From: Leptolyngbya sp. CCY15150
Lineage (GTDB): Bacteria; Cyanobacteriota; Cyanobacteriia; RECH01
Direction: 5' to 3'
Assembly: GCF_016888135.1 (NCBI RefSeq)
Contig: NZ_JACSWB010000278.1
Location: 1-64,000, forward strand
Length of the DNA stretch: 64,000 nucleotides
Shown here: positions 6,078 to 21,835 of the stretch, in pieces
Layout: each line of letters opens with the position of its first letter
Position numbering within the stretch: the stretch's first letter is position 1
Program-made: the position numbers and the translations under genes
The notes under the pieces: generated by a model
Told to the model about the DNA's origin: nothing
The model's input: the letters and a program-made list of their open reading frames with translations, nothing else
Database searches by the model: none

Positions 6078-6112
6078 ATGCCAAGTCTATTAGATCAAGG
6101 ACATTGAGTTAA

Positions 6113-6184
6113 CTGGGGTGCTAGGATTCGAACCTAGGAATGGCGGGACCAAAACCCGCTGCCTTACCACTTGGCGACACCCCA
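6113..6184 (-). tRNA. tRNA-Gln (anticodon TTG)
   Basis: 72-nt tRNA on the minus strand. The 5' end TGGGGTG pairs with CACCCCA to give a U1-A72 acceptor stem with G73, the glutamine identity pattern. The anticodon loop reads GTTTTGGT (anticodon TTG), and the T-arm is CCTAGGTTCGAATCCTAGC. The CCA tail is not encoded. Confidence 0.95.
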
Positions 6185-6267
6185 TCACGGCTGCTTACAT
6201 ATATTAGCAGTTGTGTTACAGGTTGTGTCAACCTTTACAAAAGATTTTTGGCGATCGCCTTCGATTC

Positions 6268-7665
6268 CTAAAATCCTTGCCGTAGTAAGGCATCGGTCTG
6301 TTGATATAACCCTTGCCAAGCGCTTTGCCAATGGCTTTCCGATGACCAGTGCTGAAAACAACTGGTTTGCGACAGCAGGTAGTAGAGCAACGCCTTGCGA
6401 TAGCGGGGGGATTCGCTGAGGCGGTGACCGGCTAGGGGAGGACGGTGGCCGGCGGCGATCGCGTGGTGGAAGCGTTGGTGTAGGCGTTGGTGGGGCACGT
6501 CGGGACGGGTGGAGGGCGACGGCATTACCTGGCAGACGGGATAGTCATCGAGCCCTAGACCGGTGGCCTGCAGCAGCTCTAGATATTCGGTGCCGGTGAG
6601 CCCTTGTACAGAGCGATCGCCTTGGTTGAGGACGTCATACCAGGTATTGCGGAAGGCGGCTGGAAAGTCGTGCATCATGGCATGGGTGTTTTCGCCGTCT
6701 TCGATCTGGGTGACCAGGGGCGGGATGAGGCGATCGCCGAGGGGTTGGCGGGCAAGCTGCTGGGCTTGGCGGTAGGGCTCCATGCTGGCGAGGGACTCGG
6801 CGGTGCAGTGGCTGGGCTGTACGAGCACCGCCATGCTTAGGGTTTGCCCTTGGGTGTTGGTCACCTCTAGACGATGGGGGAGGTGAACCTGGGAGAGCGG
6901 TTGTCGTTCGGGGGTGCAGACCTGCTCTGCGCGCACCAAGAGCCAGCGGTAGCCAGTATCTTGCAGGGTTTGCACTAGGGTATAAAGAGCATTGGGCTCT
7001 GTGGGGAGCTGGAGCTCGGGCAGGCAGAAGCCCCGCACGCGCCGCAGGGCCTCCCAGCCAAAGATGGCGGCGAAGTGGTGCTGCCAGGCTTGGATATGCA
7101 GTTTGAAATCAGCGGCGGGAATGATGGGAGCGATCGCGTGCCCCCAGAAGGTGCCGAGCCATTCGACGTAGGGCTGGTAGGTTTTTTCGGTGGTGATGCG
7201 TTTGAGGTTATCGAGCACGTCGCCGCGTCCCATCTGCCGCAGACCCCACAGCAAGGTGCCGGAGTAGGTCAACATCACCCGTGGGCTATAGCCTTGGTTG
7301 ATCAGGTCAACCATAAAGTTGGCGATGCGGCTATAGCAGTAGGTGAAGGTGCCAGCTCGGTGATTATCCCCATCGAAGGGATGCTCAAACATATACTGAA
7401 GATGGCTGATCAGGTGCCCTGGCTCTTGGCTGGGTACCATGGGCTGATGCATATGCAGCGCGACGGCAAAGGCAGCGGTGTAGGTCTCTAAGGATGGGGA
7501 GGATGGTTCCAAAAAGACCGGACGTTGATCCTGCCGCACCTGCTCTAGATCGGTTTCCCAGCCGCAAAGATTAGGAAGGTCGTTGATGAGTTCTGGAATG
7601 GGCTGCAGGGGCGCGATCGCTTGGGAGTTGGACGATTCATCAATGGGCGGCAGAGCAGAGATCAT
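6268..7665 (-). CDS. Glycoside hydrolase family 57 protein
   Basis: 465-residue cytoplasmic protein of the GH57 alpha-glucan-active family (alpha-amylase/branching-type enzymes with a (beta/alpha)7 barrel). The first conserved region is AVALHMHQP (residues about 67-75); further regions are CYSRIANFMVDL, LTYSGTLLWGL and WLGTFWGHAIAPII. It is short for the family, which often exceeds 500 residues, and I cannot place the catalytic Glu and Asp with certainty, so the exact activity is open. Start ATG at 7665; no signal peptide. Likely role in glycogen or related glucan turnover. Confidence 0.8.
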   Translation of the reverse strand: MISALPPIDESSNSQAIAPLQPIPELINDLPNLCGWETDLEQVRQDQRPVFLEPSSPSLETYTAAFAVALHMHQPMVPSQEPGHLISHLQYMFEHPFDGDNHRAGTFTYCYSRIANFMVDLINQGYSPRVMLTYSGTLLWGLRQMGRGDVLDNLKRITTEKTYQPYVEWLGTFWGHAIAPIIPAADFKLHIQAWQHHFAAIFGWEALRRVRGFCLPELQLPTEPNALYTLVQTLQDTGYRWLLVRAEQVCTPERQPLSQVHLPHRLEVTNTQGQTLSMAVLVQPSHCTAESLASMEPYRQAQQLARQPLGDRLIPPLVTQIEDGENTHAMMHDFPAAFRNTWYDVLNQGDRSVQGLTGTEYLELLQATGLGLDDYPVCQVMPSPSTRPDVPHQRLHQRFHHAIAAGHRPPLAGHRLSESPRYRKALLYYLLSQTSCFQHWSSESHWQSAWQGLYQQTDALLRQGF

Positions 7666-7863
7666 GACGGCGAGCCTTGTTAAAACTTAAAACAATGACT
7701 GGAGTCCTACGCGCAGGGGTGATCAGGTCATTGCGAAGAAGCGCAACGCCACCCAGACGCGATCGCTCAAGGGGGTAACGGGTAATCTAAAAATATCCTT
7801 AAGCACCCTAAACCTTAGTATATCGATCCCTTGATGCCTCTCTCTAGTCGTTAACAAAGTTCT

Positions 7864-8139
7864 ATGAATACCGCTGACGATTCGTTTCAAAAAGCTAACG
7901 ATTGTTTCAGGCGATCGGCGCACCAGCGTTGGCATCGCCACCAAAGCCAGCTCCACATTTTGCGATCGCAGCTTGGGTTTTCGGAGGTTGCGCCCTCGCG
8001 GCCGGCGGTCTGTCGCGGTTGTGCTCACTACCATGGAGTTGCCTATGGGCAGGCCCGCGATCGCCGCACGTTGTTGATCTGCGGGTTTCATCCCTATGGT
8101 TGGCAGGGGCAGGCTTGTCCAGACTGGCAGCCCGACTAG
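7864..8139 (+). CDS. Small four-cysteine protein (probable metal site)
   Basis: 91-residue protein. The C-terminal half carries CRGCAHYHG (Cys50, Cys53), LLICGFHPYGW (Cys73) and ACPDWQPD (Cys85). This spacing of cysteines with His/Tyr/Trp matches a short conserved hypothetical that I associate with cyanobacteria and could bind zinc or iron-sulphur. The N-terminal 45 residues are basic and less ordered. ATG at 7864 is used; no strong ribosome-binding site is visible. The alternative frames over this stretch lack such a motif pattern. Confidence 0.65.
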   Translation: MNTADDSFQKANDCFRRSAHQRWHRHQSQLHILRSQLGFSEVAPSRPAVCRGCAHYHGVAYGQARDRRTLLICGFHPYGWQGQACPDWQPD

Positions 8140-8376
8140 GCTGGGCGGAACTTGAGTCCATCAGAGACGGGGGCGATCGCTTGCTCTGAGGTCATTTGAC
8201 GTATATTTTGCGATAGAGTGATTGGGACAACTTGGGTGCTGGCGTATGTTCAACGCCCCATCGTAGCGATCGCGTCATGGCCATAAAAAGAGGTCTATGA
8301 GCAATAACGGTGATGTCTTTCAAGCAGTCATATCAGGAGTGATGAAAGACTAGTTGTGTGATGTCAAGTAACAGCC

Positions 8377-8384
8377 AAAGGAGG
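8377..8384 (+). promoter_or_regulatory. Strong Shine-Dalgarno fixing a TTG start
   Basis: AAAGGAGG lies seven bases before TTG at 8392, a near-perfect ribosome-binding site. It supports TTG initiation of the sulfotransferase gene, which has no ATG in a suitable position (the next in-frame Met is residue 26). Confidence 0.75.
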
Positions 8385-8391
8385 CGATAAA

Positions 8392-9453
8392 TTGTTGGAC
8401 TTGGGAAAGTTTTCTGACGGAACTCCCATCACAGAAGCTAGCCTAAAAGCTTGGAAAGCATTGTCGATGGAGGTAAGAGCTGAGCGTAATCTAAAGCAAC
8501 TCGATCGCTTAGTTGTAAGCTGGGATACTCTAGTCAATCTTCTTGATAGCGAAGAATACAGAATTAATGTGACATCCAATAATGTACCTAGTATTGGGGG
8601 CGATCGCTCTATTGTTTTGTTTTTACATATTCCAAAAGTAGGTGGTTCAACGTTGGCATATGTGTTAAATAAAAACCATGAGAGCCATCATTCAATTCAT
8701 GCTAATGCTCCAGAATTGGAACACAAGCCTTACCTCTTATTTAAACGCGATATGTTGTGTGACTTGGTGATGGGACATCACAGAATCAACTCGATTCTAT
8801 ATCAACTTCTAAATCGACCCGTGATTCATATGACAATGTTGCGGGATCCTGTCAGCCGCGTTGTTTCATATTATGACTATTTGTATACCTCTAAAGTGCA
8901 TCCGCTACGTCATAAGGCCAAGCAGATGACACTGCAAGAATTTATCGAATCCAAGGAAATTGTTGAACTAGAAAATGCTCAGTCTCGCCGATTGGTCGGC
9001 AGTTTGTATCGGGCTCCGTTCAGAAAAAAAGCAGGTCAATCTGTGACCTCTCCTTGGGACGATACTGATCAACTGCTGAAGGATGCTAAAGAAACATTGA
9101 CGAGCCGATTTTCGTTGTTTGGTTTGACGAATGACTATACACGGTTTTTGCTAATGGCAAAGAAACTGTTGTTCTGGCGAGATATTTATTATGTTCGTAA
9201 AAATGTATCGAAGCAAAAAACAGTTGTCGCTGATGTTGAACCTAGGGTAATTGATTTGATCCGGCAGCGAAATCAGGCTGATATTGCACTGTTTGATTAT
9301 GCAAAGCAGTTGTTTGATGAGCGTTGCGATCAGCTAGACATTACACAAGAGAAAGTAGATCACTATGAGGCGCTGAACACAACGTATCAAGATCTATTAT
9401 GCTCATCTCAGCAGCTATTTTCAAGCACTTTACCTGTGAGTGCCGATTTGTAA
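8392..9453 (+). CDS. Sulfotransferase-like protein
   Basis: 353-residue PAPS-dependent sulfotransferase-like protein (Sulfotransfer_2 type). The 5'-phosphosulfate loop is HIPKVGGST (residues 79-87) and the 3'-phosphate motif is LRDPVSRVVSYY (150-161). The first 70 residues are an extra N-terminal region without a signal peptide. The family transfers sulfate from PAPS to sugars. The gene is AT-rich compared with the window average and begins a cluster of sulfotransferase and glycosyltransferase genes. The stop is five bases before the next start, so the two are one transcript. Confidence 0.82.
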   Translation: MLDLGKFSDGTPITEASLKAWKALSMEVRAERNLKQLDRLVVSWDTLVNLLDSEEYRINVTSNNVPSIGGDRSIVLFLHIPKVGGSTLAYVLNKNHESHHSIHANAPELEHKPYLLFKRDMLCDLVMGHHRINSILYQLLNRPVIHMTMLRDPVSRVVSYYDYLYTSKVHPLRHKAKQMTLQEFIESKEIVELENAQSRRLVGSLYRAPFRKKAGQSVTSPWDDTDQLLKDAKETLTSRFSLFGLTNDYTRFLLMAKKLLFWRDIYYVRKNVSKQKTVVADVEPRVIDLIRQRNQADIALFDYAKQLFDERCDQLDITQEKVDHYEALNTTYQDLLCSSQQLFSSTLPVSADL

Positions 9454-9457
9454 CACG

Positions 9458-10318
9458 ATGAAAATTGCTCATATTATTAACCCATTTAAGGCAAAAGAAA
9501 CCCAGGATTTATTCTTGGCTCAGCCGATCACATTTAAGACCATGGAAACTGCCCAGCGGTTTGCCAAAGACTATGGTCTGGAGGTAGAACTTTATGCTGC
9601 CTACTATCCGGTTGATGAAGAAGTTGTTCCGAGTAGTTTTATTAAAACACCCCCTTTAGATCGCTCAGTTTTAGATGTGGCAAAGATTCAATTCCAAGTG
9701 CCTAGAACATTTCCATTGCTGGGTGATATTTTAGATCGCTTATATGCTGCAACGGATGCAGACTATCTTGTTTATACGAATGTTGATATTGCCTTAATGC
9801 CGTTTTTTTATACGACGATTGCAAGGTTTATTGAACGAGGATTTGATGGATTTGCCATTACTCGTCGCACGATATCAAAAGATTATAAAGGGGTGGATGA
9901 TATTCCATTAATGTATGCAGAATATGGAGAGAATCATCCCGGACATGATTGCTTTGTATTCAATCGCGATGTGTACTCTCAATATCGTTTGTTGGATGCT
10001 TGCATTGGAGCATTAAGCATTGGCCAGATCTTGCTATTTAATATTATTTGCAACGCGAAAAGGTTTCGTGTTTTTAGAGGTCACCACCTAACGTTTCACC
10101 TGGGAAATGACCGAGTCGATTTATCAGAAACATCTGATGAGTACTCGAAATATCAGGACTATTCAGATCACAACTTATATCAAGTTCGTCAGTTTGTGGA
10201 ATATTATCGATCTATAGATAAGCTCGCCAATCATCGAATTATTCAAAATTTTTTAGACAGTGAACGAGCAACCATGCCAATTCCTGGTATGGAATTTATT
10301 TCTGATGAGTTGCTGTAA
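9458..10318 (+). CDS. Putative glycosyltransferase-like protein
   Basis: 286 residues, beginning MKIAHIINPFKAK. The context YLVYTNVDIALMPFFY has a DxD-like acidic site (NVDI) after hydrophobic strands, as in GT-A glycosyltransferases, and GHDCFVFNRDVY follows where an acceptor-binding segment would lie. I do not recognise a specific family. ATG at 9458 is preferred over GTG at 9440, which overlaps the previous gene. AT-rich like its partner. It probably works with the neighbouring sulfotransferases on a glycan, but this rests on context. Confidence 0.6.
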   Translation: MKIAHIINPFKAKETQDLFLAQPITFKTMETAQRFAKDYGLEVELYAAYYPVDEEVVPSSFIKTPPLDRSVLDVAKIQFQVPRTFPLLGDILDRLYAATDADYLVYTNVDIALMPFFYTTIARFIERGFDGFAITRRTISKDYKGVDDIPLMYAEYGENHPGHDCFVFNRDVYSQYRLLDACIGALSIGQILLFNIICNAKRFRVFRGHHLTFHLGNDRVDLSETSDEYSKYQDYSDHNLYQVRQFVEYYRSIDKLANHRIIQNFLDSERATMPIPGMEFISDELL

Positions 10319-10351
10319 GTAAGTTGCTGTAAGCAAGTGTAAAGGTTCAAG

Positions 10352-11113
10352 TTAACTATCTAGGCTGTAACTAAATGCCTTTGCCCACTTTTCCCATTGC
10401 TGGATATCAAATCGAGTACTTTGAAGGATCTCTTCTCGTTCTACATTCCACTTTTCAAAGTACTTCAGATTTTCAGTGCTTGAAACTTCTTCACTAAGAG
10501 ATACCTCTTGAATGCCTAGAAATTGGAAGATTTTACTCACTTCAACCTGATAGTCTGAAGCGAGGTCTTCGTATCTTAAAAAATAGTGATTTTTAATGCG
10601 CGGTAAATCGTCTAAAAATCTTTGATGACAGACTATCCAATGTTCAATGAGTTCGTCAATTTTTCCCTTTTTGTGAAACTTTGCCTTGGTAGCATAGGCA
10701 ACAGCAACAGGATGTCTTAGGATAGTGACAAATTTAGCCTTGGGAAACAGTGCTTGCAGGAAAGGCATCCTGACCAGATTGGGAGGAGATTTTTCTACAA
10801 AATTTGATTTGCTTAAATCCCAGTGATGACTCCATTCATCAAATAACTTACGTGCATTCTCTTCAGAGACTAAAGGATGATGTTCATCCATAAAGGAGGC
10901 TGGATCAAACCCGAAGCGTCCGGGGCCGCCAAATACCTTGGCAGGTGGATAGATGCTTTGTAGATGTTGTCCTTCATCCTTAGGAACGCCTGTATTACTG
11001 AATCCACTAATGTCAGGATGTTTCTTTAAAAGCTCGTGCAGGAGCGACGTTCCGCTTCTGTGTAATCCACAAATGAAAATAATAGTTCTCTGGTCTGCGT
11101 CTATCGAAAACAT
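10352..11113 (-). CDS. Sulfotransferase (Sulfotransfer_3-like)
   Basis: 253 residues. P-loop-like 5'-PSB motif CGLHRSGTSLLHELL begins at residue 15; the 3'-PB motif TILRHPVAVAYA lies near 130-141; FLRYEDLASDY follows, as in bacterial carbohydrate sulfotransferases. The protein is close to the minimal domain length, with no signal peptide. It converges with the preceding gene pair with a 33-base gap. AT-rich composition. Acceptor unknown. Confidence 0.85.
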   Translation of the reverse strand: MFSIDADQRTIIFICGLHRSGTSLLHELLKKHPDISGFSNTGVPKDEGQHLQSIYPPAKVFGGPGRFGFDPASFMDEHHPLVSEENARKLFDEWSHHWDLSKSNFVEKSPPNLVRMPFLQALFPKAKFVTILRHPVAVAYATKAKFHKKGKIDELIEHWIVCHQRFLDDLPRIKNHYFLRYEDLASDYQVEVSKIFQFLGIQEVSLSEEVSSTENLKYFEKWNVEREEILQSTRFDIQQWEKWAKAFSYSLDS

Positions 11114-11190
11114 ATAGGTTTAAAGCTGTGTGAGGCTAGAAAGTTGAGTGAACTTGAGATCGAGATGCCAATGGTAACCGGAATAATAGC

Positions 11191-11835
11191 TTAAAACTGA
11201 TAGCCAAATAATTGAATTTCCTCAGAAAATAAGCGTGTGATGATATCCACTGATTCAGGATCCAGAAGTTCTTGATAGGAAGTGTTGGCTGGTCGAAGAT
11301 TTCCCTTGGCTCTTGGTAATTCAATGGATTCTTGAATGCCTAGTTTGTTGTGAAGAACGTCCCTTAGATGTTCTTCAAGGCTTTCATACAAACAGACTCT
11401 ATCGACTACTATGCTCCCTTTGATCGTGTATAGATCAAATCCTTTTCTTCTAAAACGTTTGTTGTGTTCAGATTTAATAAAATCATTAATAGAAGGACGC
11501 GGCTCTTTTTGAAAACGATAGTAGTATAAAGACACTATTTTGTCCCAGGGATTCCGCTCAAAACAGAACGTATAATATTGATCCCATACCCTTCTTGATA
11601 TAAGTCTTCTGACCCTGCGGGCAGAAATATGGGGTCTAATATCTTCTCCTTCGATAGTCGTATAATTTTGAGCTGTTCTATATCCTAATGATTTTCTTAA
11701 CTCCTCATCCTCAGGAATAATAGGCGTGATAATGTCATCATCGCCGCAAAATTTTGAAAGGGCAATTTCTATGCTGGTTCCTGCTGTTTTAGCAGTTTTG
11801 ATAAAAACAAACTTATGTTTATGAGAAACAATCAT
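11191..11835 (-). CDS. Sulfotransferase family 2-like protein
   Basis: 214 residues, starting MIVSHKHKFVFIKTAKTAGTS; the 5'-PSB motif is KTAKTAGTS (13-21) and the 3'-PB motif is CFERNPWDKIVSLYYY (91-106). This resembles short bacterial Sulfotransfer_2 proteins acting on glycans. The stop of the upstream GT25-sulfotransferase gene (11843) is seven bases before this start, so they are co-transcribed. AT-rich, almost free of HIP1 sites. Confidence 0.82.
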   Translation of the reverse strand: MIVSHKHKFVFIKTAKTAGTSIEIALSKFCGDDDIITPIIPEDEELRKSLGYRTAQNYTTIEGEDIRPHISARRVRRLISRRVWDQYYTFCFERNPWDKIVSLYYYRFQKEPRPSINDFIKSEHNKRFRRKGFDLYTIKGSIVVDRVCLYESLEEHLRDVLHNKLGIQESIELPRAKGNLRPANTSYQELLDPESVDIITRLFSEEIQLFGYQF

Positions 11836-11842
11836 GATAGCT

Positions 11843-13375
11843 TTAGTCCAAAACAGTCAAGGTGTAATTGTGTTTTTTGCAGAAAAATCTAAGCTCTGAT
11901 TTTAAGAAGTCACTGATACTATGCCAATCTTCAGGACTTAGCACTGGTTTCTCAATGATTTTTCCTTTGTAGGGCTTGCGTGTATTGATAGTTTTGGATG
12001 GAGCTTCAATCTCGGTAAATTTTCGAGCTTCATCTACTAACTTTTTGCGTTTTAGAAACCGGAATAGCTTCCTCTGATCATCCTCAATACGAATAGTGAG
12101 ATCCGGTTTCATCAACTCAATGATCCGGCTCCAATAGATAAAGGTTGCAACCGCTGCGTCTATGGGGCTAAGAGTTGCTAAATCAAGACCAAAGTAGCGC
12201 TGAATGTGCTTTTGGCGAAACGCAAACGACGTCTCTGAATATTGGTTTTCTACCAGTAAACTCGGGATAGCATCTAAGGGCGATCGCACATGATGAATGA
12301 TGTGCCGAAAGTGCGTATAGCGACGCGATCGCGCATACTTGTCCTTGCCGTAGGGATATCGGGCATCATCCACCGCAAACATCCACGAGGAAATGCCTTG
12401 GGCTTCCATGCGTTCATGCCCCACCTCCAACCCAAAAGCGCTCAACAACTGACTCATATAGCCAGACCCACAGCGCGGATGTCCTACACATAAAACATCC
12501 CGAATAATAGCGTGCTTCACATGCTGCTCCATGCTCTGCTTCGCTGCACGAATCGTTGCTTCATCCGCTTGCTGCTGCACCAAATAGTCCACATGCTGTT
12601 GCTTGGGATGGATTAACGATGCCATTGCCCCAGTCGAGGCTGAATGTTCATGGGCAAAGGGCGGCACCACCGTGTAGTTATGGTATTGCGGCGCAACCTG
12701 ACGATGAACATAGACATCGACCGTGGTGTCTACTTTCTTCACTTGATCGATGAGGGCGATCGCCATCGCTCGGTTGATGGCATAGCAAGGGTTAGACATG
12801 CGGATGAGCGTTGTCGAAAGCTCCACCGTCCCGTGATACTGATGATCATCCCGCAGCCTCCAGCCCAGCCGCAGCAAACAAGGGCGATCGCTTTGGAAGT
12901 TTTGCGTAAACTCGTCTGTTGCCACCAGTTGCTGCAACACCAGGGGCGCATGATCATTAAAGAGAATGTCATCCTCAACAATCAGGGCATTCTTCCACCC
13001 CTGATCGCGAATTAGCTCCCACACCGCCTGATGGCTAAGCCAAGTGGCCACCTGGGAGGGAAGCAAAACATTGTTGCAATCGTCCTTGCCGCACTCCAGC
13101 TTATGGCAGCGAAAACAATCGGGATAGCGCTTCACCCGCTCTTGCCAGTAGTAGTCGTCCACAATGGGCGCATCAGAAGCGATCGCATCAAAAAAACGAT
13201 AGCGCTGAATGCCAACCGCCTCGAAGTGCTGACGAATGTGCTCCCGCCGATCGAGACTGGCGGGCAAGCTCAGGCAAACAATGTCATCAAACCAATCGGT
13301 CAGCCCAGCCAAGTTCTCCATTTGGGGGTTCGATCCTAACGAGCGTTTAAACAAACGACGAAGTAGACGGTGCAT
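11843..13375 (-). CDS. Fused GT25 glycosyltransferase-sulfotransferase
   Basis: 510 residues with two enzymatic halves. Residues about 30-250 match glycosyltransferase family 25 (LPS glycosyltransferase type): LPASLDRREHIRQHF, a conserved LSHQAVWELI, and the acidic site VEDDILF. From about residue 290 a sulfotransferase-like domain begins with VGHPRCGSGYMSQLL, followed by GISSWMFAVDD and HHVRSPLDAIPSLL as the 3'-phosphate region. A single chain could therefore add a sugar and sulfate the product. HIP1 sites and GC content are normal here, unlike the two genes downstream. A frame-intact fusion, not an assembly join as far as I can see. Confidence 0.8.
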   Translation of the reverse strand: MHRLLRRLFKRSLGSNPQMENLAGLTDWFDDIVCLSLPASLDRREHIRQHFEAVGIQRYRFFDAIASDAPIVDDYYWQERVKRYPDCFRCHKLECGKDDCNNVLLPSQVATWLSHQAVWELIRDQGWKNALIVEDDILFNDHAPLVLQQLVATDEFTQNFQSDRPCLLRLGWRLRDDHQYHGTVELSTTLIRMSNPCYAINRAMAIALIDQVKKVDTTVDVYVHRQVAPQYHNYTVVPPFAHEHSASTGAMASLIHPKQQHVDYLVQQQADEATIRAAKQSMEQHVKHAIIRDVLCVGHPRCGSGYMSQLLSAFGLEVGHERMEAQGISSWMFAVDDARYPYGKDKYARSRRYTHFRHIIHHVRSPLDAIPSLLVENQYSETSFAFRQKHIQRYFGLDLATLSPIDAAVATFIYWSRIIELMKPDLTIRIEDDQRKLFRFLKRKKLVDEARKFTEIEAPSKTINTRKPYKGKIIEKPVLSPEDWHSISDFLKSELRFFCKKHNYTLTVLD

Positions 13376-13394
13376 CGTAGTTATGAAGCAATGA

Positions 13395-14204
13395 CTATTC
13401 TAAGGCTAATGTGTTAGGACATTGAATCCCTTGGGCTGTTGCTCGTTCAATATAGTGGTGAATGCGTGCCTGGCAGTCGTGAAGATCTACCGTTTGATTA
13501 ATCTGCTGTTTGCGTTTTTCCTTGGTGTTGAAGGTTTTTTGAGCCAGTTCTCGGGTTTTGTCTGTGGGTATAAGCCGCAGCTGATCAAAGACCTGCATCA
13601 CGTATTCAAAACGACTAAATGACTCTAGCCGCACCGGATGAACCTTAATGTGTGGATAGTCTTGGCAAAATCGTAATGCCCTCGCTTCTATGTCTATCAA
13701 GTAGGCAATCGAGCGATCGCATGGATCGAGATGGTCATCAGCATCTATGCAGGGAATCGCTGCCGTCACGGCATTGGGGCTAGACATCCAGTTTGGCCAA
13801 ACCTCGTTTTGATCAGAAAAATAGCCTAGCTCTAGAAAACTCTTGAGGACAGACGCTAGATTGCGTCTGAGGAGAATGACCTCAATCTGGGCACCAAAGG
13901 CATCAACCACCACATCAAAGAAGGTTTTAATAAACATGTGGTTGGTTTCGCAGTAAACCGCCTGGCTTGGCAAATCGTTGAGTAGCTTTCTAAGGGCGAT
14001 CGCCTTACACTGACGCATTGCAAATGTTTCAGCATAGGGCTTGTGATTAATCCAATGCAGATACTCGCCACTCATAGTTGGGTCTGCCTCATGGAAGCTT
14101 CTCACCTGCTTGGCACTGCCCAAGACCTTAGATAAATACTTGGAACCAGCCCGTCCCGAGTTCATACAAAAAATGAGACGATGGGCATCGTTTGTTAAAG
14201 CCAT
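13395..14204 (-). CDS. Sulfotransferase-like P-loop protein
   Basis: 269 residues with an N-terminal nucleotide-binding loop, FCMNSGRAGSKYLSKVL (12-28), and a second basic motif, LLRRNLASVLKSF, near 130, consistent with the sulfotransferase fold. The rest is helical, with TFNTKEKRKQQI near the C-terminus. It lies 19 bases upstream of the fused gene on the same strand and probably starts that transcript. More divergent than its neighbours; a non-enzymatic P-loop role cannot be excluded. Confidence 0.65.
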   Translation of the reverse strand: MALTNDAHRLIFCMNSGRAGSKYLSKVLGSAKQVRSFHEADPTMSGEYLHWINHKPYAETFAMRQCKAIALRKLLNDLPSQAVYCETNHMFIKTFFDVVVDAFGAQIEVILLRRNLASVLKSFLELGYFSDQNEVWPNWMSSPNAVTAAIPCIDADDHLDPCDRSIAYLIDIEARALRFCQDYPHIKVHPVRLESFSRFEYVMQVFDQLRLIPTDKTRELAQKTFNTKEKRKQQINQTVDLHDCQARIHHYIERATAQGIQCPNTLALE

Positions 14205-14485
14205 ACCCTGTGTTAAAGTGCTTTTTGCAATGGATTAACAGCATTCTACCCTGCTTGTTTGTCAGATTAAGAGCTTTGGCTTCGCCTATATCAGCCTCCT
14301 GAGTTCACCCTTGGGCTCAAAATAGCGGTGCTGGCAACGTTGACGCTAAAGCCTGCTTAGTCCAGCGCCCTGGTTGCGTTTGAATTGCCTGTATGATAGG
14401 GATGTTTATTCTGCGCAGTTGCTTGCCTGATTGGAGCACCCTCAGCCCGCCGCCGTCATAGAGGATTGGAGCACTAGAGACCCGT

Positions 14486-16015
14486 ATGTTGAGCCAAGAC
14501 GACCTGCTGTACTTCATTCACATCCCCAAAACTGCTGGCACCACCCTCATCTCACTGCTGGATGCCAAGTTTGACGTGAATGAAATTTTCCCGGCTCAAC
14601 TCTGGAAAGAATTGGCCAAAATTCCCCCGGATCAAATTGGCAAGTACCGCTTCTATCGAGGGCATTTTGGAGCCAATGGTCTCAAGTCCCTCCTGCCCAA
14701 GGAGCCTGTTTGCCTGACCATGCTGCGGCAGCCCATTCCCCTTGCTCTGTCTACCTATAAGTTTGTGCTGCGGGAGCCTGGCACCCGAGTCCATTCCTTG
14801 GCAAAATCTAGCCAGATGAGCTTTGCCGACTTCGTCAGCCATCCCAAAACCTGCACCCGGATTTCCAACAAACAAACCCGTAACCTGTCGTTTGATATCC
14901 ACAGCGCTCCGCCCAACGATCCGGTCTTTCATTACAACGAGTCTCGCGATCGCGTCGATCAATGGCTGGAAAAATATCGCATCACCTACTCCGACAGCGA
15001 AAGCCTAGAGCGGGCTAAGCAAAAGCTAGATGACTGCGCCTTCTTTGGGCTCGTGGAACGCTTCAACGAATCCATGGCCTTGATGAGCTACACCTTTGGC
15101 TGGTCGCCCGTGGGCACCACCTCAAAGCTGCGAGAAGCTACTAGCAAGGCAGAAATCGACGCCCTGCCCACCGATGTGCGAGACATGCTGGAGGACTACA
15201 ACGAGCTGGATACGCTGCTCTATAGCTATGCGGATGCGGCGTTTCAGGAACGCCTATCGGCCATGATTCAGCATCTGCACGACTTTGCCAAGCCTGGTGA
15301 ACCGCGCCCCGAGACCTGGGACGAGGATCCAGAAACCATGCAAACTCTGCTCGATCGCCACTATACAGACTGCCAAAAACAGCGTCAGATTCCTCCCTCG
15401 GAGGTCATCCGGGTTGACTTTGCCCATGCCCTCAGCGGTTCTGGCTGGCACCATCGCGAAAAGGTGGCTGTTGATCAAACCTACTTCCGCTGGACGGGCC
15501 CCTCGACGACATCGACGCTGGATGTGCCCCTCTCTCAACAGGCTGATGTGCGCGTCACCTTTCGCATCATTAATGCAGTTGAATCCGGTATCATCGATAG
15601 CCTCAGCCTTAGCGTGAACGATACCCACGTGGCCCTGGCCTTGCTGGATGGAAAAGGAACCGTGGTGAGAACCTATCAGGCGGTTGTGCCCAAAGAACTG
15701 CTAGAGAGCGATCGCCCCTTCACCCGTTTCACCTTTCAAGTTGCCCAAACGCGATCGCCCCGTGACCAAGAAGCCTGGCAGTCGGATATGCGGCAGCTTG
15801 GGGTAGCGCTGCATTGGATGGATATTCACCCTGTCGAAATGACGGATGATCACCCCATACCTCCGCTGACCCAGTACAAAAACGTTGCCACGGTACGCGA
15901 TCTAAAGCGTTTGCGCCATCGCCTCCGCCGCCGCGATCGCCTCAAGTATTTAATCAAAACCACCCCAGGATTGCGATCGCTCTATTCTGTTTATAAGCGA
16001 ATGACAGCGCGGTAG
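14486..16015 (+). CDS. Sulfotransferase-like protein with C-terminal beta domain
   Basis: 509 residues. Residues 1-260 form a sulfotransferase domain: FIHIPKTAGTT (10-20) and TMLRQPIPLALSTY as the 3'-PB motif. After a linker, residues about 305-450 look like an all-beta domain (alternating polar strands, SGSGWHHRE...FRWTGPSTTSTLDVPL) that may bind carbohydrate; the C-terminus is strongly basic (LRHRLRRRDRLKYLI). ATG at 14486. Divergent from the minus-strand sulfotransferase set with a 280-base gap that likely holds both promoters. Confidence 0.78.
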   Translation: MLSQDDLLYFIHIPKTAGTTLISLLDAKFDVNEIFPAQLWKELAKIPPDQIGKYRFYRGHFGANGLKSLLPKEPVCLTMLRQPIPLALSTYKFVLREPGTRVHSLAKSSQMSFADFVSHPKTCTRISNKQTRNLSFDIHSAPPNDPVFHYNESRDRVDQWLEKYRITYSDSESLERAKQKLDDCAFFGLVERFNESMALMSYTFGWSPVGTTSKLREATSKAEIDALPTDVRDMLEDYNELDTLLYSYADAAFQERLSAMIQHLHDFAKPGEPRPETWDEDPETMQTLLDRHYTDCQKQRQIPPSEVIRVDFAHALSGSGWHHREKVAVDQTYFRWTGPSTTSTLDVPLSQQADVRVTFRIINAVESGIIDSLSLSVNDTHVALALLDGKGTVVRTYQAVVPKELLESDRPFTRFTFQVAQTRSPRDQEAWQSDMRQLGVALHWMDIHPVEMTDDHPIPPLTQYKNVATVRDLKRLRHRLRRRDRLKYLIKTTPGLRSLYSVYKRMTAR

Positions 16016-16023
16016 AACCTGGT

Positions 16024-16104
16024 ACTGCAAGACGGAAGAACGAAGATAGAAGAACGAAAAGAAATTCTAGGAAAAACAAGGTTTCCCGCCTTAGAGGACT
16101 AGTC
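16024..16104 (+). repeat. Dispersed repeat, copy A
   Basis: Contains a degenerate pair of the 14-base unit AGATAGAAGAACGA, then AAAGAAATTCTAGG and GTTTCCCGCCTTAG. The same order of blocks recurs at 45164-45277 (opposite strand) and 61171-61325. It lies between two convergent genes and overlaps the end of the ABC-like gene by a few bases. Confidence 0.7.
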
Positions 16105-17931
16105 AGCTTCCATGCCATCGACCTCTCCATAGAAGGCTCGGGCGGCTTCTCGATGGGTATTGAGATAAACTTGAATGTCTGCTAGATGATGGATAAGCCA
16201 TTGGATATCGCTACAGCCCGAGAAGCCGTCATTGCCAAAGATGAGGACGGGTGTAGATGGGTCGCGTTGATGCTGTAAGGCTCTTCTTGCCAAGGCCTTG
16301 TCCGGCTCTGCTGTGATTAAAAACAGGTAGTGGTCTGTCCATGACGTCAGGATGGCATTGACAAAGCCGGAATTCAGTTTGAGGAGTGGTTTGATGCTGA
16401 TCCAGAGGACGCGCTTGGACTGCATGAGCGGCAAGGCATCCAGTAGGTAGCGTGTCTCATCGCTAAGATTGTCTCCGGTAGGATCGTTGTCCTGTGAGCG
16501 GAGATAGTCCTCTAGTTCTGCCCTCAGTCCTGCTTCTTGAAGATAATCTTGCAGCGACGATGGAATAGAGTTGAAAAGCTGCTGTAGGGTCTGTGGTTCC
16601 CTCGGCGTAAACTCTTGATCTAGAGTCGATTTGGCGATAAATGCAGATTTAGATAATAAATCCGTAGGGGGAATCAGGGTGTCTTCTAAGTGGGCGGCGA
16701 CGGCTTCTAGGGTGCTGTAGTTAGGCGCATCGGAAATGACAATCCATACAGGTTTGCCAGGCTGGATGTCGAGCTGTCGTTTTGATTCGTGAAAGTCGAT
16801 GGCAGAAAACGAGCAAAGCAGTTGACTAGGCAGCGGGTGATTGAGCAGGGGCGATCGCTGCCGATGTCGGCGGTACTGCTCGACCTGGCTCATAAAGTCT
16901 ACATAGTATTTATAGATAGGCAATAGACGACTCATTCTGCCGATGACCGTCGTTATCTGCTGCAATCCACTAAAGGCTAACTGTAGGGCAAATAGATAGA
17001 TCAGTAAGTTAGACCAGCGGTGTTCGCCATAGGTTTGGCTGAAGGCAAAAAATGTAAATACGCTGATCAGGCAAACGGTGAAAAATAGCGTATTGATCAA
17101 CCGCAGACGACTGGTGACTAGGTGTCGAGCATAGAATAAAAGCGATGCTTTCTGATACTCTGGAGACTCCAGCACCCGTTGGGTATGAGCCATTTTTTGT
17201 TCATAGGACGCATGGGTTTCGAGAACGTTATCTAAGCTCTGAGATACATTTTTCTGGGCAGGTCGATTGAGCTTAGAATAGTCGTCTTGCCGCTGCATGA
17301 CCCAGTGATTCGCTTGATACAGTGGAATAAAGTAGATCAAGACGAGGGGAATCAGAAGGGCTGTTAGGTTAACACTGGTTGAGACTAAAAAGATGAGCGC
17401 CAGGATAAACTTTAGGGCAGGTAAAATCCCTCCTAATAAACCTTTGAGGGCGATCGCACTGGCGCGGCTGGTGCTCAACAAAAACTGCATGGCCTGGCTA
17501 GGCGGCCCGTCTAGCAGCTTTTGCCATCCTTGGTAGGCCGGATCGCTAGCCACCTCAAATAGTCGATAGACGGAACGTTTTTGATAGGCCACAACCAATC
17601 GAGCAATCAGCCAATCGGTTTGATATAAACAGACCGAGCTCATGATCCCTAGGCATAGGAGCGAGATGGCTGAGATAGCCAGCATATAAGGTGTTTCGAG
17701 CTGGATATCGATACCCAATACGGTCAGCGATTGCCCCGATTCTAGGTAGCGCACATAGAGAATAAAGCCACCAAAGACGGATGCAGCACTGGTGACGCCG
17801 ATCCAATTCAGCACCACCACCCCAAAAATCCGCAGCTTGAAATAGTGCCAGCAGTCTAAGACAAGCCAGCCTACTCGAAAAAAGTAGGTTGCCAGCAGTT
17901 TCCGTGTCAATGCAAATTTATGAATAGTCAA
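16099..17931 (-). CDS. ABC-exporter-like protein with degenerate ATPase half
   Basis: 610-residue protein laid out like an ABC half-exporter: about six hydrophobic segments between residues 20 and 340 and a cytosolic C-terminal domain. The expected Walker A glycine-lysine loop is replaced by WIVISDAPNYSTLEA (about 395), no LSGGQ signature is visible, and the Walker B position reads RVLWISIKPLLK without the acidic pair. ATP hydrolysis is therefore unlikely. It follows the sulfotransferase cluster and may be a membrane partner or scaffold in glycan export. The alternative is an unrelated membrane protein with chance resemblance. Confidence 0.6.
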   Translation of the reverse strand: MTIHKFALTRKLLATYFFRVGWLVLDCWHYFKLRIFGVVVLNWIGVTSAASVFGGFILYVRYLESGQSLTVLGIDIQLETPYMLAISAISLLCLGIMSSVCLYQTDWLIARLVVAYQKRSVYRLFEVASDPAYQGWQKLLDGPPSQAMQFLLSTSRASAIALKGLLGGILPALKFILALIFLVSTSVNLTALLIPLVLIYFIPLYQANHWVMQRQDDYSKLNRPAQKNVSQSLDNVLETHASYEQKMAHTQRVLESPEYQKASLLFYARHLVTSRLRLINTLFFTVCLISVFTFFAFSQTYGEHRWSNLLIYLFALQLAFSGLQQITTVIGRMSRLLPIYKYYVDFMSQVEQYRRHRQRSPLLNHPLPSQLLCSFSAIDFHESKRQLDIQPGKPVWIVISDAPNYSTLEAVAAHLEDTLIPPTDLLSKSAFIAKSTLDQEFTPREPQTLQQLFNSIPSSLQDYLQEAGLRAELEDYLRSQDNDPTGDNLSDETRYLLDALPLMQSKRVLWISIKPLLKLNSGFVNAILTSWTDHYLFLITAEPDKALARRALQHQRDPSTPVLIFGNDGFSGCSDIQWLIHHLADIQVYLNTHREAARAFYGEVDGMEAD

Positions 17932-18081
17932 GGTCGTTTATTGAAATGGAGCAAGGTATAGACCCATGAAGGCTGAGAGGTTGAAAAGCAGGTATGTGTC
18001 TAGCCAGACCCAAGCCCTCGGTGACGGGTTCCTGCTTCGGTGGTTGATCGGGATGCGCATGACGGCTCTAGATTGGCCCCG

Positions 18082-18918
18082 CTAGCCCTTGACGCCACTG
18101 CCAGCATCTGTGGGCACAATGTAGCGCTGCATGATCACAAACAAGGCCAAAATCGGGGCGATGGAAATCACAGAGCCAGCGGCGATCAAGCGCCAGTCGA
18201 GGGAGAAGGCACCGGCTAGTTTGGCAACGCCTAGGGGCAGGGTGTAGTATTCGGGGCGATCGAGGATGATCAGGGGCCAGAGGAAATCGCTCCAGGAGCC
18301 AATAAAGACGAAGATTGCCAGGGTGACCAGGGCAGGGCGCACGGCGGGCAGCATGATGTGCCACCAGATGCCCAGATCAGAGCAACCATCCACCCGAGCC
18401 GCTTCTTCCAGCTCCTTGGGGACACCCAGAAAGGCCTGCCGCAGCAGGAAAATGCCGAAGGCAGAGGCGATCGCTGGAAAGATCAAACCCAGATAGGTGT
18501 TGCGTAGCCCAAGCTGCACGGTGAGGATATAGAGGGGAATCATCACGATCTGAAAGGGAATCAGAATAGTGGCCACGATCGCTGCGAAGGTGGCATCCCG
18601 TCCAGGAAAGTCGAGCCGCGCTAAGGGATAGGCGGCAAGGGAACAGAAGAGGAGGTTGAGGGTCACCGTGAGCACAGCAACGATGACGCTGTTTTTCAGA
18701 TATTGCCCAAAGGGGTTACTGTTCCACACCGTCACAAAGTTTTGCAGGGTGAACTCTTGGGGAATGAACTGGGGCGGAAATTGGAAAATATCTTCCGTGG
18801 GTGACTTAAACGCGGTGCTAACCAGCCACAGCAGGGGCAGCAGCATGGCAAGGGCGATCGCTCCTAGGACGACATAGGTCCAGGTATAGCGCCAGAAGGG
18901 TGGGTTGGAGGTGGCCAT
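18082..18918 (-). CDS. Sugar ABC transporter permease (MalG type)
   Basis: 278-residue inner-membrane permease of the carbohydrate-uptake family. Six transmembrane segments; the ATPase-contact EAA loop reads EEAARVDGCSDLGIWWHIMLP. ATG at 18918 (MATSNPPFW) lies 10 bases after the asnS stop; an earlier in-frame ATG at 18942 would overlap asnS. No partner permease, binding protein or ATPase gene is next to it, which is common for cyanobacterial sugar transporters such as GgtD. The substrate cannot be read from sequence. Confidence 0.85.
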   Translation of the reverse strand: MATSNPPFWRYTWTYVVLGAIALAMLLPLLWLVSTAFKSPTEDIFQFPPQFIPQEFTLQNFVTVWNSNPFGQYLKNSVIVAVLTVTLNLLFCSLAAYPLARLDFPGRDATFAAIVATILIPFQIVMIPLYILTVQLGLRNTYLGLIFPAIASAFGIFLLRQAFLGVPKELEEAARVDGCSDLGIWWHIMLPAVRPALVTLAIFVFIGSWSDFLWPLIILDRPEYYTLPLGVAKLAGAFSLDWRLIAAGSVISIAPILALFVIMQRYIVPTDAGSGVKG

Positions 18919-18928
18919 GGGCAAATCC

Positions 18929-20320
18929 CTAAAACTCAGCATTGAGGGGCGATCGCGGAAAGGGAATGACGTCGCGAATGTTGGCCATGCCAGTCATAAA
19001 CTGCACTAGCCGTTCAAATCCGAGGCCAAAGCCCGCATGTTCTACGGTGCCATAGCGGCGCAGATCCCGATACCACCAAAGGTCTTCCAAGGGCATTCCC
19101 TGGGCTTGGATGCGTTGTTCTAGGATATCGAGCCGTTCTTCCCGCTGGGAGCCGCCGATAATTTCACCGATGCCCGGTGCCAAAACGTCCATGGCCCGCA
19201 CGGTTTTGCCATCATCGCTGAGGCGCATGTAGAAGGCTTTGATCTCAACGGGGTAGTCGGTGACGATCACCGGACGTTTGAACAACTCTTCGGCCAGGTA
19301 GCGCTCATGTTCCGACTGTAGGTCTAGCCCCCAGGAAACCGGATACTCGAAGGTGCGATCGCTTTTTTCTAGGAGGGCGATCGCCTCTGTATAGGTAATC
19401 CGTTCAAACTGGCTGTTGATAATTGCATCCGCATTGGACAGCACCGTATCGCTAATCCGTTGATTGAAGAACTCCATATCTTCAAGACATTGGTCTAGCA
19501 CCCGCTGGAAGAGATATTTGAGGAACTGCTCCGCCAAATCCATATTGCCATCCAGGTTGCAGAATGCCATCTCCGGCTCCACCATCCAAAACTCGGCGAG
19601 GTGGCGGGAGGTGTTGGAATTTTCGGCGCGGAAGGTGGGGCCAAAGGTGTAGACATTGCTAAACGCCATGGCCATGATCTCGGCTTCCAATTGCCCGCTG
19701 ACGGTGAGGTAGGCAGGGCGACCAAAGAAGTCTTGGCCATAGTCCACGTCGCCGCTTTTGGTTTTGGGAACGTTCTGCAGATCTAGATTGGTCACCGCAA
19801 ACAGTTCCCCCGCCCCTTCACAGTCGCTGGCGGTAATCAACGGCGTATGCACCCACATGAAGCCGCGCTCTTGGAAAAATTGGTGGATGGCGTTGGCGCA
19901 GGCGTTGCGCACCCGGAAGACGGCCCCGAGGGTGTTGGTGCGCGATCGCAAATGACCGATGGTGCGCAGAAATTCAAAGGAATGGCGCTTCTTTTGCAAT
20001 GGATAGGTTTCCGGATCGGCACCGCCATGGACGGTGATGGTTTGCCCCTGCATTTCGATGCGCTGTCCCTTGCCCAAGGAGGCGACCAGTTGCCCGCTGA
20101 CCTCCACCGCCGCGCCGGTATTAATCTGGGCAATGATGTCGGCGTAGCTGGGCAGGTCTTTATTGAGCACCACCTGCAGCCCAGTGAGGGAGGAGCCGTC
20201 GTTGACGTCCACAAAGGTAAAGTCTTTGAGTTCACGCTTGGTGCGCACCCAGCCCCGAATGGTGACGGCATCATCGGGCTGGCCGGTTCGAAGGATTTCA
20301 ACAATACGGCGAAGGGTCAT
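18929..20320 (-). CDS. asnS: Asparaginyl-tRNA synthetase
   Basis: 463-residue class IIb aminoacyl-tRNA synthetase that charges tRNA-Asn. N-terminal OB fold ([25 protein letters not shown]), then the class II core: motif 2 [21 protein letters not shown] and motif 3 [15 protein letters not shown]. Start ATG 20320 ([10 protein letters not shown]) matches the usual start of the family; the frame stays open to 20467 but that extension has no conserved sequence. The permease gene follows in the same direction. Confidence 0.96.
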
Positions 20321-20654
20321 GGCTGCAACGGGTATGGGTTCTACAGTCTTACTGTCCGGCGGTGAGTTGCAAAAACCGGATCGTGTAGTAACTAGCGTAA
20401 GGCTTTTTGAATCGTCCGGGGACGTTGCCTGCATCTCTGGGTGGGTGGCTGACCCATCGTTTCCCACCAGGGGAGAAGGGGAGCAAGAAAGGTGCAGGTG
20501 TTTTCAAAGCCCCTCTACCGACCTGGGAGAGGGGTTTGGGGTGAGGGTCTTTGAGGCAGCATCCAAGCCTGATGAGACGGTGCGTTACGGCTTCGCCTAA
20601 ACCCCTACGACTGAAGCTCTGGTCTGAACCCAAGGCGAATCCTAGGACGGAGGG
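20321..20654. other. Intergenic region with a GC-rich hairpin repeat
   Basis: Between asnS and the acetyltransferase gene. It contains CCCCTCTACC-GACCT-GGGAGAGGGG followed by TTTGGGGTGAGGG at about 20510-20547, a hairpin type that recurs in many cyanobacterial genomes, and a similar weaker run at 20466-20482. No gene is supported. Confidence 0.55.
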
Positions 20655-21287
20655 CTAGATGCCAGGCGATCGCTCCCGACTGGGCGAGGGCTGTTCTGGC
20701 GGTCGGTCGTCATAGGCACCGGGCCAGGGGCCGATAGGTTCTAGGGGTAGGGTTTCGGTGCAGTGGGTTTGCTGATACTGCTTGAAACCGCGAGCTTCGT
20801 AGTTTTTCAGCGCATAGGGGCCATCTAGGGAACAGGTGTGTACCCAAACGCGATCGCCCCCCATGTCCCAAGCTTTTTGAATGCCCGTGCTCAGCAAATG
20901 TTTGCCAATGCCCTGCCCGAGAAAGGGTTTGAGTAAGCCAAAGTAGGCCAGTTCCACGCTGTTGCGCTGCTGCGGCTGGTGGTGCAGTTCTACATACCCC
21001 GCAGGCGTGCCCCGCAGGTAGGCCACCCAGGTTTGCACGGTGGGCTGCTGGAGATAGGCTTGCCAGTGGGCATAGCTCCAGGGGAGGCGATCGCGCCAAT
21101 GCCAATCACCGCCGACGCTGGCGTAGAGAAAGCGGCTGAGTTCAGGACAGGGGAGTTCGGCTTGGATGACGGTGAGCTCAGGGCGATCGCTCCAGGCGGG
21201 ACGAAACTCATCGGGGCTAAGTAGTTCTAAATACCAAGTGGTGACGTCAACGCGGTGAGATATGGTGCGGTGAGATTCGTTGGCCAT
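20655..21287 (-). CDS. GNAT-family N-acetyltransferase
   Basis: 210 residues. The acetyl-CoA loop reads LGQGIGKHLLSTGIQKAWD (about 125-145), followed by VWVHTCSLDGPYALKNYEARGFKQYQ, the typical GNAT beta5-alpha4 region. The N-terminus has the TTWYLELLSPDEF motif found in one bacterial subgroup. ATG at 21287. Substrate unknown (amine of a metabolite or peptide). A 25-base gap separates it from the upstream small membrane protein gene on the same strand. Confidence 0.87.
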   Translation of the reverse strand: MANESHRTISHRVDVTTWYLELLSPDEFRPAWSDRPELTVIQAELPCPELSRFLYASVGGDWHWRDRLPWSYAHWQAYLQQPTVQTWVAYLRGTPAGYVELHHQPQQRNSVELAYFGLLKPFLGQGIGKHLLSTGIQKAWDMGGDRVWVHTCSLDGPYALKNYEARGFKQYQQTHCTETLPLEPIGPWPGAYDDRPPEQPSPSRERSPGI

Positions 21288-21312
21288 CGATGCTCCTGAG
21301 GGGTGGATGGAG

Positions 21313-21666
21313 CTAGCCAGCGATCGCCTTTAGCAGCCAGCCGATGACAATCCCGATGCCACCAAACCGCACGGCTTGCCAAAAGGGTTCGCTCAAACTG
21401 CTCCAGGTAAAGAGATCACTTTCTAGCGCCAGCTTCAGGTCATCAAGCTGCTGGGCGATATGGCTGAGTTCGTCCTTGAGGTCTGGGGTGCGATCGCCCT
21501 TGGGAATGCGGCGGATATCATCAATCCGGTTGCGTAGTTCGTCTCGGCGCTGGCGATCGCGCTGCACCTGGGCATAGCGATCTTTGAGCTTGTGCAGGGC
21601 AGTCTCAACCTCAGCGAGGGATTCATCAAAGGATGGTGCCGACGAGGGCTCTGGAGAAGATGGCAT
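21313..21666 (-). CDS. Small coiled-coil membrane protein
   Basis: 117 residues: an acidic Ser/Pro-rich start, a charged helix likely to form a coiled coil (SLAEVETALHKLKDRYAQVQRDRQ to about 85), and a C-terminal transmembrane helix (FGGIGIVIGWLLKAIAG). It is probably tail-anchored in the plasma or thylakoid membrane. No family recognised beyond a cyanobacterial conserved hypothetical. ATG at 21666. Confidence 0.65.
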   Translation of the reverse strand: MPSSPEPSSAPSFDESLAEVETALHKLKDRYAQVQRDRQRRDELRNRIDDIRRIPKGDRTPDLKDELSHIAQQLDDLKLALESDLFTWSSLSEPFWQAVRFGGIGIVIGWLLKAIAG

Positions 21667-21835
21667 CTGAAAACCCTATACCCCTAGATGAAGAACCTGC
21701 AAACGCATAGCCGCAATCCTATCAAAATCCTTCACCGTCCTCCAACCCTATGGCCTAGCGATTGCTTGGAGAGAATGTCACACTAAAGAAGCTGTTGACC
21801 TCTATCCGGATCCAGTTGGGTCTGACGATTGCACC

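Follow-up and report, generated by a model that had tools for sequence, protein, structure and literature searches.

The region between positions 8392 and 16015 of the 64,000-nucleotide stretch analysed here (the window) contains seven genes, six of which encode sulfotransferases (STs) or ST-like proteins, one of these being a fusion of a GT25 glycosyltransferase (GT) with an ST (Table 1). The reading frames of all seven are intact. Their orientation is mixed, forming three transcription units, and the gaps of 4, 7 and 19 bp between genes suggest operons; the start of ORF2 is more likely at 9458, 4 bp past ORF1. ORF1 to ORF4 are AT-rich, with a GC content of 37–41% (41% in ORF1) versus 53%, and there is one HIP1 site against an expected 9.1. 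A promoter scan gave a result near chance (15 found, 13.2 expected), no hydrophobic span above 1.6 occurs in the six ST proteins and no viral hallmark genes were seen in the island. Within 8392–16015, Pfam searches found neither a priming transferase nor a flippase or polymerase family. The region holds no Wzx, Wzy or exporter, as the sequence-only reading of this DNA had noted for the polymerase and flippase. Likewise, none of the seven proteins matches a megasynthase-type biosynthetic family.

Table 1. Genes of the island and extent of the variable segment
Feature	Position	Strand	Assignment	Remark
ORF1	8392..9453	+	Sulfotransfer_2	TTG start after AAAGGAGG
ORF2	9458..10318	+	Probable GT-A-fold transferase, unnamed family	
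ORF3	10352..11113	-	Sulfotransfer_3	
ORF4	11191..11835	-	Sulfotransfer_2	
ORF5	11843..13375	-	GT25 fused to ST	GT25 ~residues 29-250; ST ~286-506
ORF6	13395..14204	-	Probable divergent ST	
ORF7	14486..16015	+	N-terminal Sulfotransfer_2-like domain	C-terminal domain of unknown kind
Variable segment enclosed by flanks conserved in the genus	8226..16098		Flank matches to G002, G042	

Sulfotransferase assignments and the ORF2 product

The earlier count of six ST-like domains in about 8 kb is upheld, on different grounds for different proteins. By the curated Pfam cut-offs (22 bits for Sulfotransfer_2, 27 for Sulfotransfer_3, 24 for GT25), three of the six lie above threshold: ORF1 and ORF4 match Sulfotransfer_2 at 36.1 and 46.7 bits, and ORF3 matches Sulfotransfer_3 at 96.3 bits. 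ORF3 also matches the NoeE model (E 7.5e-11), far under that model's cut-off. Two more are matched below threshold, ORF7 (Sulfotransfer_2, 18.0 bits) and the ST half of ORF5 (14.5 bits against 27), and ORF6 has no Pfam match. ORF7 is counted as an ST because of its homology to ORF1 (25% identity, E 5e-13); it has a paralogue in its own genome, at C207 (35% over 454 aa). By sequence, the STs belong to two Pfam families plus divergent ones and are not a single expansion. The six are too diverged for assignment to one glycan.

The PAPS-binding residues, which the sequence-only reading had singled out for checking, are largely in place. The 5'-phosphosulfate P-loop with its Lys/Arg is present in all six candidates, and the R-x7-S of the 3'-phosphate site in five, ORF3 being without the Ser; ORF1, for instance, carries HIPKVGGSTL together with R-x7-S. 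This motif pair arises in 3–23% of permutations of shuffled sequences, and is thus weak evidence when taken alone. ORF6 combines a P-loop-like GRAGS with R-x7-S, the key residues being invariant in all three aligned sequences, and one of its relatives matches Sulfotransfer_1 at 0.00087. A sequence search of the PDB gave no match for ORF6, and profile comparison with the other island STs did not support it as an ST (probability 0.1–0.2%). On its motifs and weak matches, ORF6 is probably a divergent ST.

The additional GT-like gene of the sequence-only reading, ORF2, fares less clearly. It has no match in Pfam, NCBIfam or PHROG and no PDB sequence match of note. A structure search started from its model, which is of low confidence (pLDDT 48), returns folds of the GT-A and nucleotidyltransferase types. 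Alignment shows that its family keeps a TN-x-DI motif. ORF2 is probably a GT-A-fold transferase of an unnamed family, which the poor model makes a lead only.

The GT25-sulfotransferase fusion and its viral relatives

The reported fusion of an ST to GT25 is borne out in both halves of ORF5. The GT25 half matches Pfam Glyco_transf_25 at 53.3 bits against a cut-off of 24, and the AlphaFold2 model (pLDDT 67) places it closest to ColGalT1 (9evk_B, Z 14.7). The ST half, its Pfam score being under cut-off, is accepted on its predicted fold, which aligns to sulfotransferases, several of them PAP-bound (best Z 9.8, a curacin ST). Residues 19–251 share the fold of known GT25 galactosyltransferases (bacterial beta-1,4-GalT, 8xlz; ColGalT1, 9evk; Mimivirus R655, 9crz; Z 13.9–14.7) and their EDD motif. 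In contrast to those enzymes, the fusion family has a conserved four-cysteine insert and the C-terminal ST domain. E134-D135-D136, the four Cys, R301, R364 and S372 are invariant in a six-sequence alignment.

A search of genome contigs with the single ORF5 sequence found no relative, and one with the alignment found five. The family, spanning cyanobacteria, Ruegeria and Desulfobacteraceae, looks new: our searches of an open-access library gave no description of a GT25-sulfotransferase fusion, and the one paper there that names both GT25 and a sulfotransferase concerns a snail. Its members are sometimes fused to a methyltransferase or adjoin a sulfatase. In L059 the module carries a methyltransferase-like domain 43% identical to the gene directly after the fusion in Leptothoe, and a sulfatase adjoins the fusion in two of the five named relatives (L056, L059). 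The island itself has no sulfatase, the single match in the genome being on a different contig. The Ruegeria fusion stands alone between cobS-like and cobT-like genes (neighbours named by eye). A further candidate ST beside the Leptothoe fusion (L012:7836-8615) was dropped, Pfam being empty.

Split or re-fused versions of the pair occur in viral contigs. Two of these (L067, L068) carry the row ST2-GT25-ST4-APS kinase, another contig (L066) encodes an ST2-GT25-ST4 triple fusion and two more (L087, L090) have GT25-ST3 pairs. The viral proteins are 24–33% identical to ORF4 and ORF5; ORF4 matches the ST adjoining GT25 in L068 at 27% identity (E 3e-25), and ORF2 has viral relatives as well (L064, L065). 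A general association of GT25 with STs in viruses is rejected, since, of 23 viral GT25 loci, 5 have an ST in the surrounding stretch that was analysed and 18 have none there. By our reading those five represent three distinct lineages. The three closest viral GT25 relatives all have an ST, though two of them represent one set of genes found on two contigs. Among 50,697 phage records there was no relative of ORF2 or ORF4 and there were three matches to ORF5, one of its ST half to Phage C48C1 (Kyanoviridae; 28%, 5e-17) and two of its GT half to records of one Burkholderia phage (21% of the query, 8e-4). In cyanobacteria and phages alike, ST genes have a scattered occurrence, and a substrate has been assigned to few of them. 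ST function in phage genomes is called still unclear in one article on marine phages (PMC10580990).

Conserved flanks, exchanged contents and genomic company

The sequence-only reading had proposed looking for the cluster in other genomes, and the search found both its flanks and comparable clusters. In one congener (G002) a 92% match to the window ends at 8225, beyond which lie another ST-like gene and, at the same location, a homologue of ORF1 (61%). A second (G042) matches at 92–95% from 16099 onward and holds a methyltransferase gene beyond the junction. Positions 9338–14505 have no DNA match in either at E ≤ 0.001. Thus, the same flanks enclose different contents in both congeners examined, the left junction being defined by G002 and the right by G042; neither spans the whole island, and as both islands end at contig ends their contents are known in part.

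The island genes are unevenly distributed. Among 388 genomes of the class, ORF5 occurs in four (one with part of the ST half only), ORF2 in four and ORF6 in three, each count including the present genome, and Sulfotransfer_2 is matched in 129. At least 13 genomes, counted by eye among the matches listed, have two or more Sulfotransfer_2 matches within 8 kb. Four STs above cut-off lie within about 12 kb in G140, where GT-like genes and an ABC exporter accompany them, and three lie within about 4 kb in G102. The dense ST cluster is therefore real but not unique, and recurs in cyanobacteria. No relative of ORF5 or ORF2 was found in 72,556 plasmid records.

The wzx and wzy genes that the sequence-only reading had suggested seeking elsewhere in the genome have candidates in two Wzx-like flippases, beside other STs, and in Wzy_C, matched twice above cut-off and once below; Wzt_C occurs twice, and the one APS kinase lies outside the island. 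Relatives of ORF5, ORF2 and ORF6 are found among polysaccharide genes in Leptothoe, G154 and G185. The Leptothoe fusion lies inside a Wzm/Wzt cluster, beside a priming transferase, Wzy_C and a gene we take to be of GT4 type. Counterparts of this last gene, the priming transferase and Wzy_C occur here in the same order at C207 (64, 65 and 33% identity). An ORF6 relative (L054) and another ST share a stretch rich in GT genes, and an ORF2 relative (L050) adjoins two STs; at L051 and L052, which belong to two related genomes, the ORF2 relatives sit outside glycan genes.

A probable modification island for a surface glycan

Of the roles considered, sequence comparison best supports sulfation of a surface glycan, on the strength of the relatives among polysaccharide genes and the PAPS-site residues in most of the STs. 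To this extent the sulfated exopolysaccharide cluster of the sequence-only reading stands; in place of a biosynthesis cluster lacking wzx/wzy, the locus is better described as a strain-variable modification island, given its conserved ~92% flanks with exchanged contents, its four AT-rich genes and the rarity of ORF2, ORF5 and ORF6. We consider it likely that the island supplies exchangeable late-acting enzymes for a capsule, O-antigen or exopolysaccharide, and that genes elsewhere encode the scaffold and export of this glycan. The domains, the folds, most of the PAPS-site residues, the exchange at a fixed place and the company of the relatives are established here; the glycan acceptor, donor sugar, sulfated position, order of reactions and benefit (phage or grazer escape, or ion binding) are inferred. 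The housekeeping APS kinase would supply PAPS. Both halves of ORF5 would act in the cytoplasm: the GT25 half would add one sugar, at a best guess galactose, as judged from the nearest relatives of known structure, to a growing glycan made elsewhere, and the ST half would sulfate that sugar or a neighboring one. ORF1, ORF3, ORF4, ORF7 and probably ORF6 would sulfate other positions, ORF2 would probably add another sugar, and an island swap would give the cell surface a different charge and identity. Counted against the island reading are the missing Ser of ORF3, the negative profile comparison of ORF6, the location of the L051/L052 ORF2 relatives outside glycan genes, the isolated position of the Ruegeria fusion, the divergence of the six STs and the truncation of both congeners' islands at contig ends.

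ST-bearing polysaccharide clusters are already published, and the island's kind is known. In Synechocystis PCC 6803, STs of different subfamilies in the synechan (xss) cluster likewise act with GTs on a surface polysaccharide; this cluster comprises two STs and eight GTs together with Wzx, Wzy, PCP and regulators (PMC8205485). That the present locus is such a biosynthesis cluster in its own right, its wzx/wzy lost or moved, is improbable. The Wzx, Wzy_C and Wzt elsewhere in the genome would fit, as would the statement that most cyanobacterial STs belong to putative polysaccharide clusters, which are frequently partial (PMC8205485). However, the island reverses the synechan proportions, with two GT-like genes for six STs, includes a GT25-ST fusion and has no priming, export or polymerisation genes. 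Partial Wzx/Wzy or ABC-type clusters also combine STs with incomplete polysaccharide sets (PMC8205485), but the island differs in its fixed position with swapped content, seen from the congeners, and in its fusion enzyme. That the STs act instead on a small natural product, a lipid or a protein is quite improbable: the closest solved folds of the ST half do include curacin, olefin-synthase and protein-tyrosine STs, but that half is fused to GT25, relatives of the island genes lie among GT, Wzm/Wzt and methyltransferase genes, and megasynthase-type families are absent (0/7). The mixed orientation, mixed GC and patchy distribution might suggest a graveyard of acquired, weakly selected genes with no joint function, but this is very hard to reconcile with seven intact frames, operon-like spacing and retained motif residues.

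A wider form of the modification-island reading is conceivable but doubtful. GT25-ST would be a portable end-cap module, adding and sulfating a sugar, that is common to bacteria and phages, with phages carrying their own APS kinase and bacteria keeping the module in swap sites; sulfate on the last sugar would act as a serotype switch deciding phage binding, which the adjoining sulfatase (L056, L059) would reverse. The viral gene sets matching the island hint at traded surface changes with a possible influence on infection. The single-chain GT25-ST makes acceptor synthesis and sulfation testable together in one enzyme, and the variable island offers a natural allelic series for relating glycan sulfation to phage sensitivity.

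The sulfotransferase island and its flanks

The window is the first part of a 325-kb contig (C278) of the 5.75-Mb Leptolyngbya sp. CCY15150 genome and contains 176 HIP1 sites, in keeping with a cyanobacterium of the class to which Leptothoe kymatousa also belongs. Within it, the island harbors seven intact genes, arranged in three units.

Features of the island and its surroundings (window positions; ST, sulfotransferase)
Feature	Position	Strand	Description
Left flank	6091-8225		92% identical to congener G002
Unit 1	8392-10318	+	ORF1 (Sulfotransfer_2), ORF2 (probable GT-A-fold transferase); 4 bp between genes
Unmatched stretch	9338-14505		
Unit 2	10352-14204	-	ORF6 (probable divergent ST), ORF5 (GT25-ST fusion), ORF4 (Sulfotransfer_2), ORF3 (Sulfotransfer_3); gaps 19, 7, 77 bp
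Four-cysteine motif	13070-13117	-	ORF5 residues 87-102
Unit 3	14486-16015	+	ORF7 (Sulfotransfer_2-like) alone
ORF7 C-terminal half	15300-16015	+	no Pfam match
Dispersed repeat	16018-16094		∼76 bp, many copies in all three genus genomes
ABC-exporter-like gene	16099-17931		protein 90% identical in congener G042
Right flank	16099-22334		92.5 and 94.6% identical to G042 (two pieces)

Comparison within the genus, which covered three genomes including the present one, reveals that both congeners have island flanks in common with this genome. The interior of G002 contains another Sulfotransfer_2-like gene, which at 20.3 bits falls short of the cut-off (22), and an ORF1 homologue (61%), after which the contig ends. 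The interior of G042 contains a methyltransferase gene and, of ORF7, retains no more than 52 bp similar to its end. The unmatched stretch had no DNA match in either congener at E ≤ 0.001. In addition, the GC content of ORF1-4 is 37-41%, compared with 53% for the window, and these genes contain one HIP1 site against 9.1 expected.

The ∼76-bp repeat is missing from the corresponding right-hand junction in G042. In the adjacent ABC-exporter-like protein, the transmembrane domain is matched weakly and the ATPase domain not at all; it may be a transporter whose ATPase half has degenerated. The C-terminal half of ORF7 is common to a paralogue on contig C207 (340.7 kb), which is adjoined by a GT-like gene.

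The GT25-ST fusion

Full relatives of ORF5, 36-42% identical over the alignment, are present at five named loci, in Leptothoe kymatousa, two cyanobacterial MAGs, Ruegeria lacuscaerulensis, and a Desulfobacteraceae MAG. The fusion of one cyanobacterial MAG (Cyanobium) carries a C-terminal methyltransferase-like domain (Pfam only 0.063) that shares 43% identity with the gene directly after the fusion in Leptothoe, and the Desulfobacteraceae fusion, in which Pfam detects GT25 only, has an extra N-terminal ST-like piece as judged by eye. Sulfatase genes adjoin the fusion in two unrelated bacteria (L059:8540-9892 and L056:7931-8449), and sulfatase and fusion might form a writer and eraser pair. The Ruegeria gene (L058:9842-11416), a lone GT25-ST gene flanked by genes resembling cobS and cobT, is a single-gene insertion.

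In the predicted structure of ORF5 (mean pLDDT 67, pTM 0.47), residues 16-254 align with GT25 enzymes (Z 12.5-14.7) and residues ∼281-510 with ST-fold enzymes (Z ≤ 9.8). As modeled, ORF5 is a GT25 plus an ST. Three STs of the island pass Pfam cut-offs, and the others are backed by predicted fold (ST half of ORF5), by homology to ORF1 (ORF7), or by motifs and weak matches (ORF6). The sequence-only reading of an ST set including one GT25 fusion is confirmed. R301 (P-loop), R364, and S372 are invariant in all six aligned fusion sequences, and the eight-residue spacing of R364 and S372 matches that of the 3′-phosphate site in solved STs. Four cysteines (CFRC...C...C) in the GT25 half, a possible zinc site, are likewise kept in 6/6 fusion proteins.

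Glycan-gene company and distribution

The Leptothoe fusion is adjoined by Wzt, Wzm, priming transferase, and Wzy_C genes. Counterparts of the Leptothoe GT4-type, priming, and Wzy_C genes occur in the same order on C207 of the present genome (64, 65, and 33% identity), and C150 contains another Wzm/Wzt pair, 35-36% identical to that of Leptothoe. Other STs of this genome adjoin Wzx-like flippases (C278:159-161 kb; C280). The flippase and polymerase genes that the earlier reading noted as lacking here have candidates elsewhere, and one APS kinase is present in the genome; the island therefore requires no PAPS or export genes of its own.

Among 388 class genomes, this one included, ORF5 and ORF2 each have matches in four and ORF6 in three; because the ORF5 match in G132 spans part of the ST half only, the fusion is present in 3/388. 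Sulfotransfer_2 is found in 129/388, and a search for similar clusters, suggested earlier, yielded other dense ST sets, for example in G140 and G102. Passages of the synechan paper (eLife, PMC8205485) place cyanobacterial STs mostly within putative, often partial, polysaccharide clusters. Dense, polysaccharide-type ST clusters are already known in kind; apparently new here is an exchangeable island with a GT25-ST enzyme, plus viral counterparts.

Viral counterparts

Viral status of contigs follows the IMG/VR call; hallmark genes were examined on two of them, L065 having a portal gene and L068 a weak late-sigma-factor match. Two viral contigs with the same genes (L067 and L068; L068:4198-7189) carry consecutive genes for Sulfotransfer_2, GT25, Sulfotransfer_4, and APS kinase, which would make up a sulfate-activating and sugar-sulfating set. 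On viral contig L066, all three domains (Sulfotransfer_2, GT25, Sulfotransfer_4) lie in a single 647-aa protein, accompanied by two more Sulfotransfer_2 genes. That GT25 and ST are split in one genome and fused in another supports the notion that both act in one pathway. The GT25 of L067/L068 retains most of the CFRC motif; the four-cysteine motif is partly kept in L068 and lost in L066. On L087 and L090, also viral, the GT25 gene overlaps a Sulfotransfer_3 gene by 4 bases. An ST is present at 5 of the 23 viral GT25 loci and absent from 18. According to PMC4390846, LPS can serve cyanophages as a receptor, and a phage-receptor role would accordingly be plausible. Cyanophage C48C1 harbors the ST half alone. 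Two viral contigs carry ORF2 relatives, and a portal gene is present on one of these contigs.
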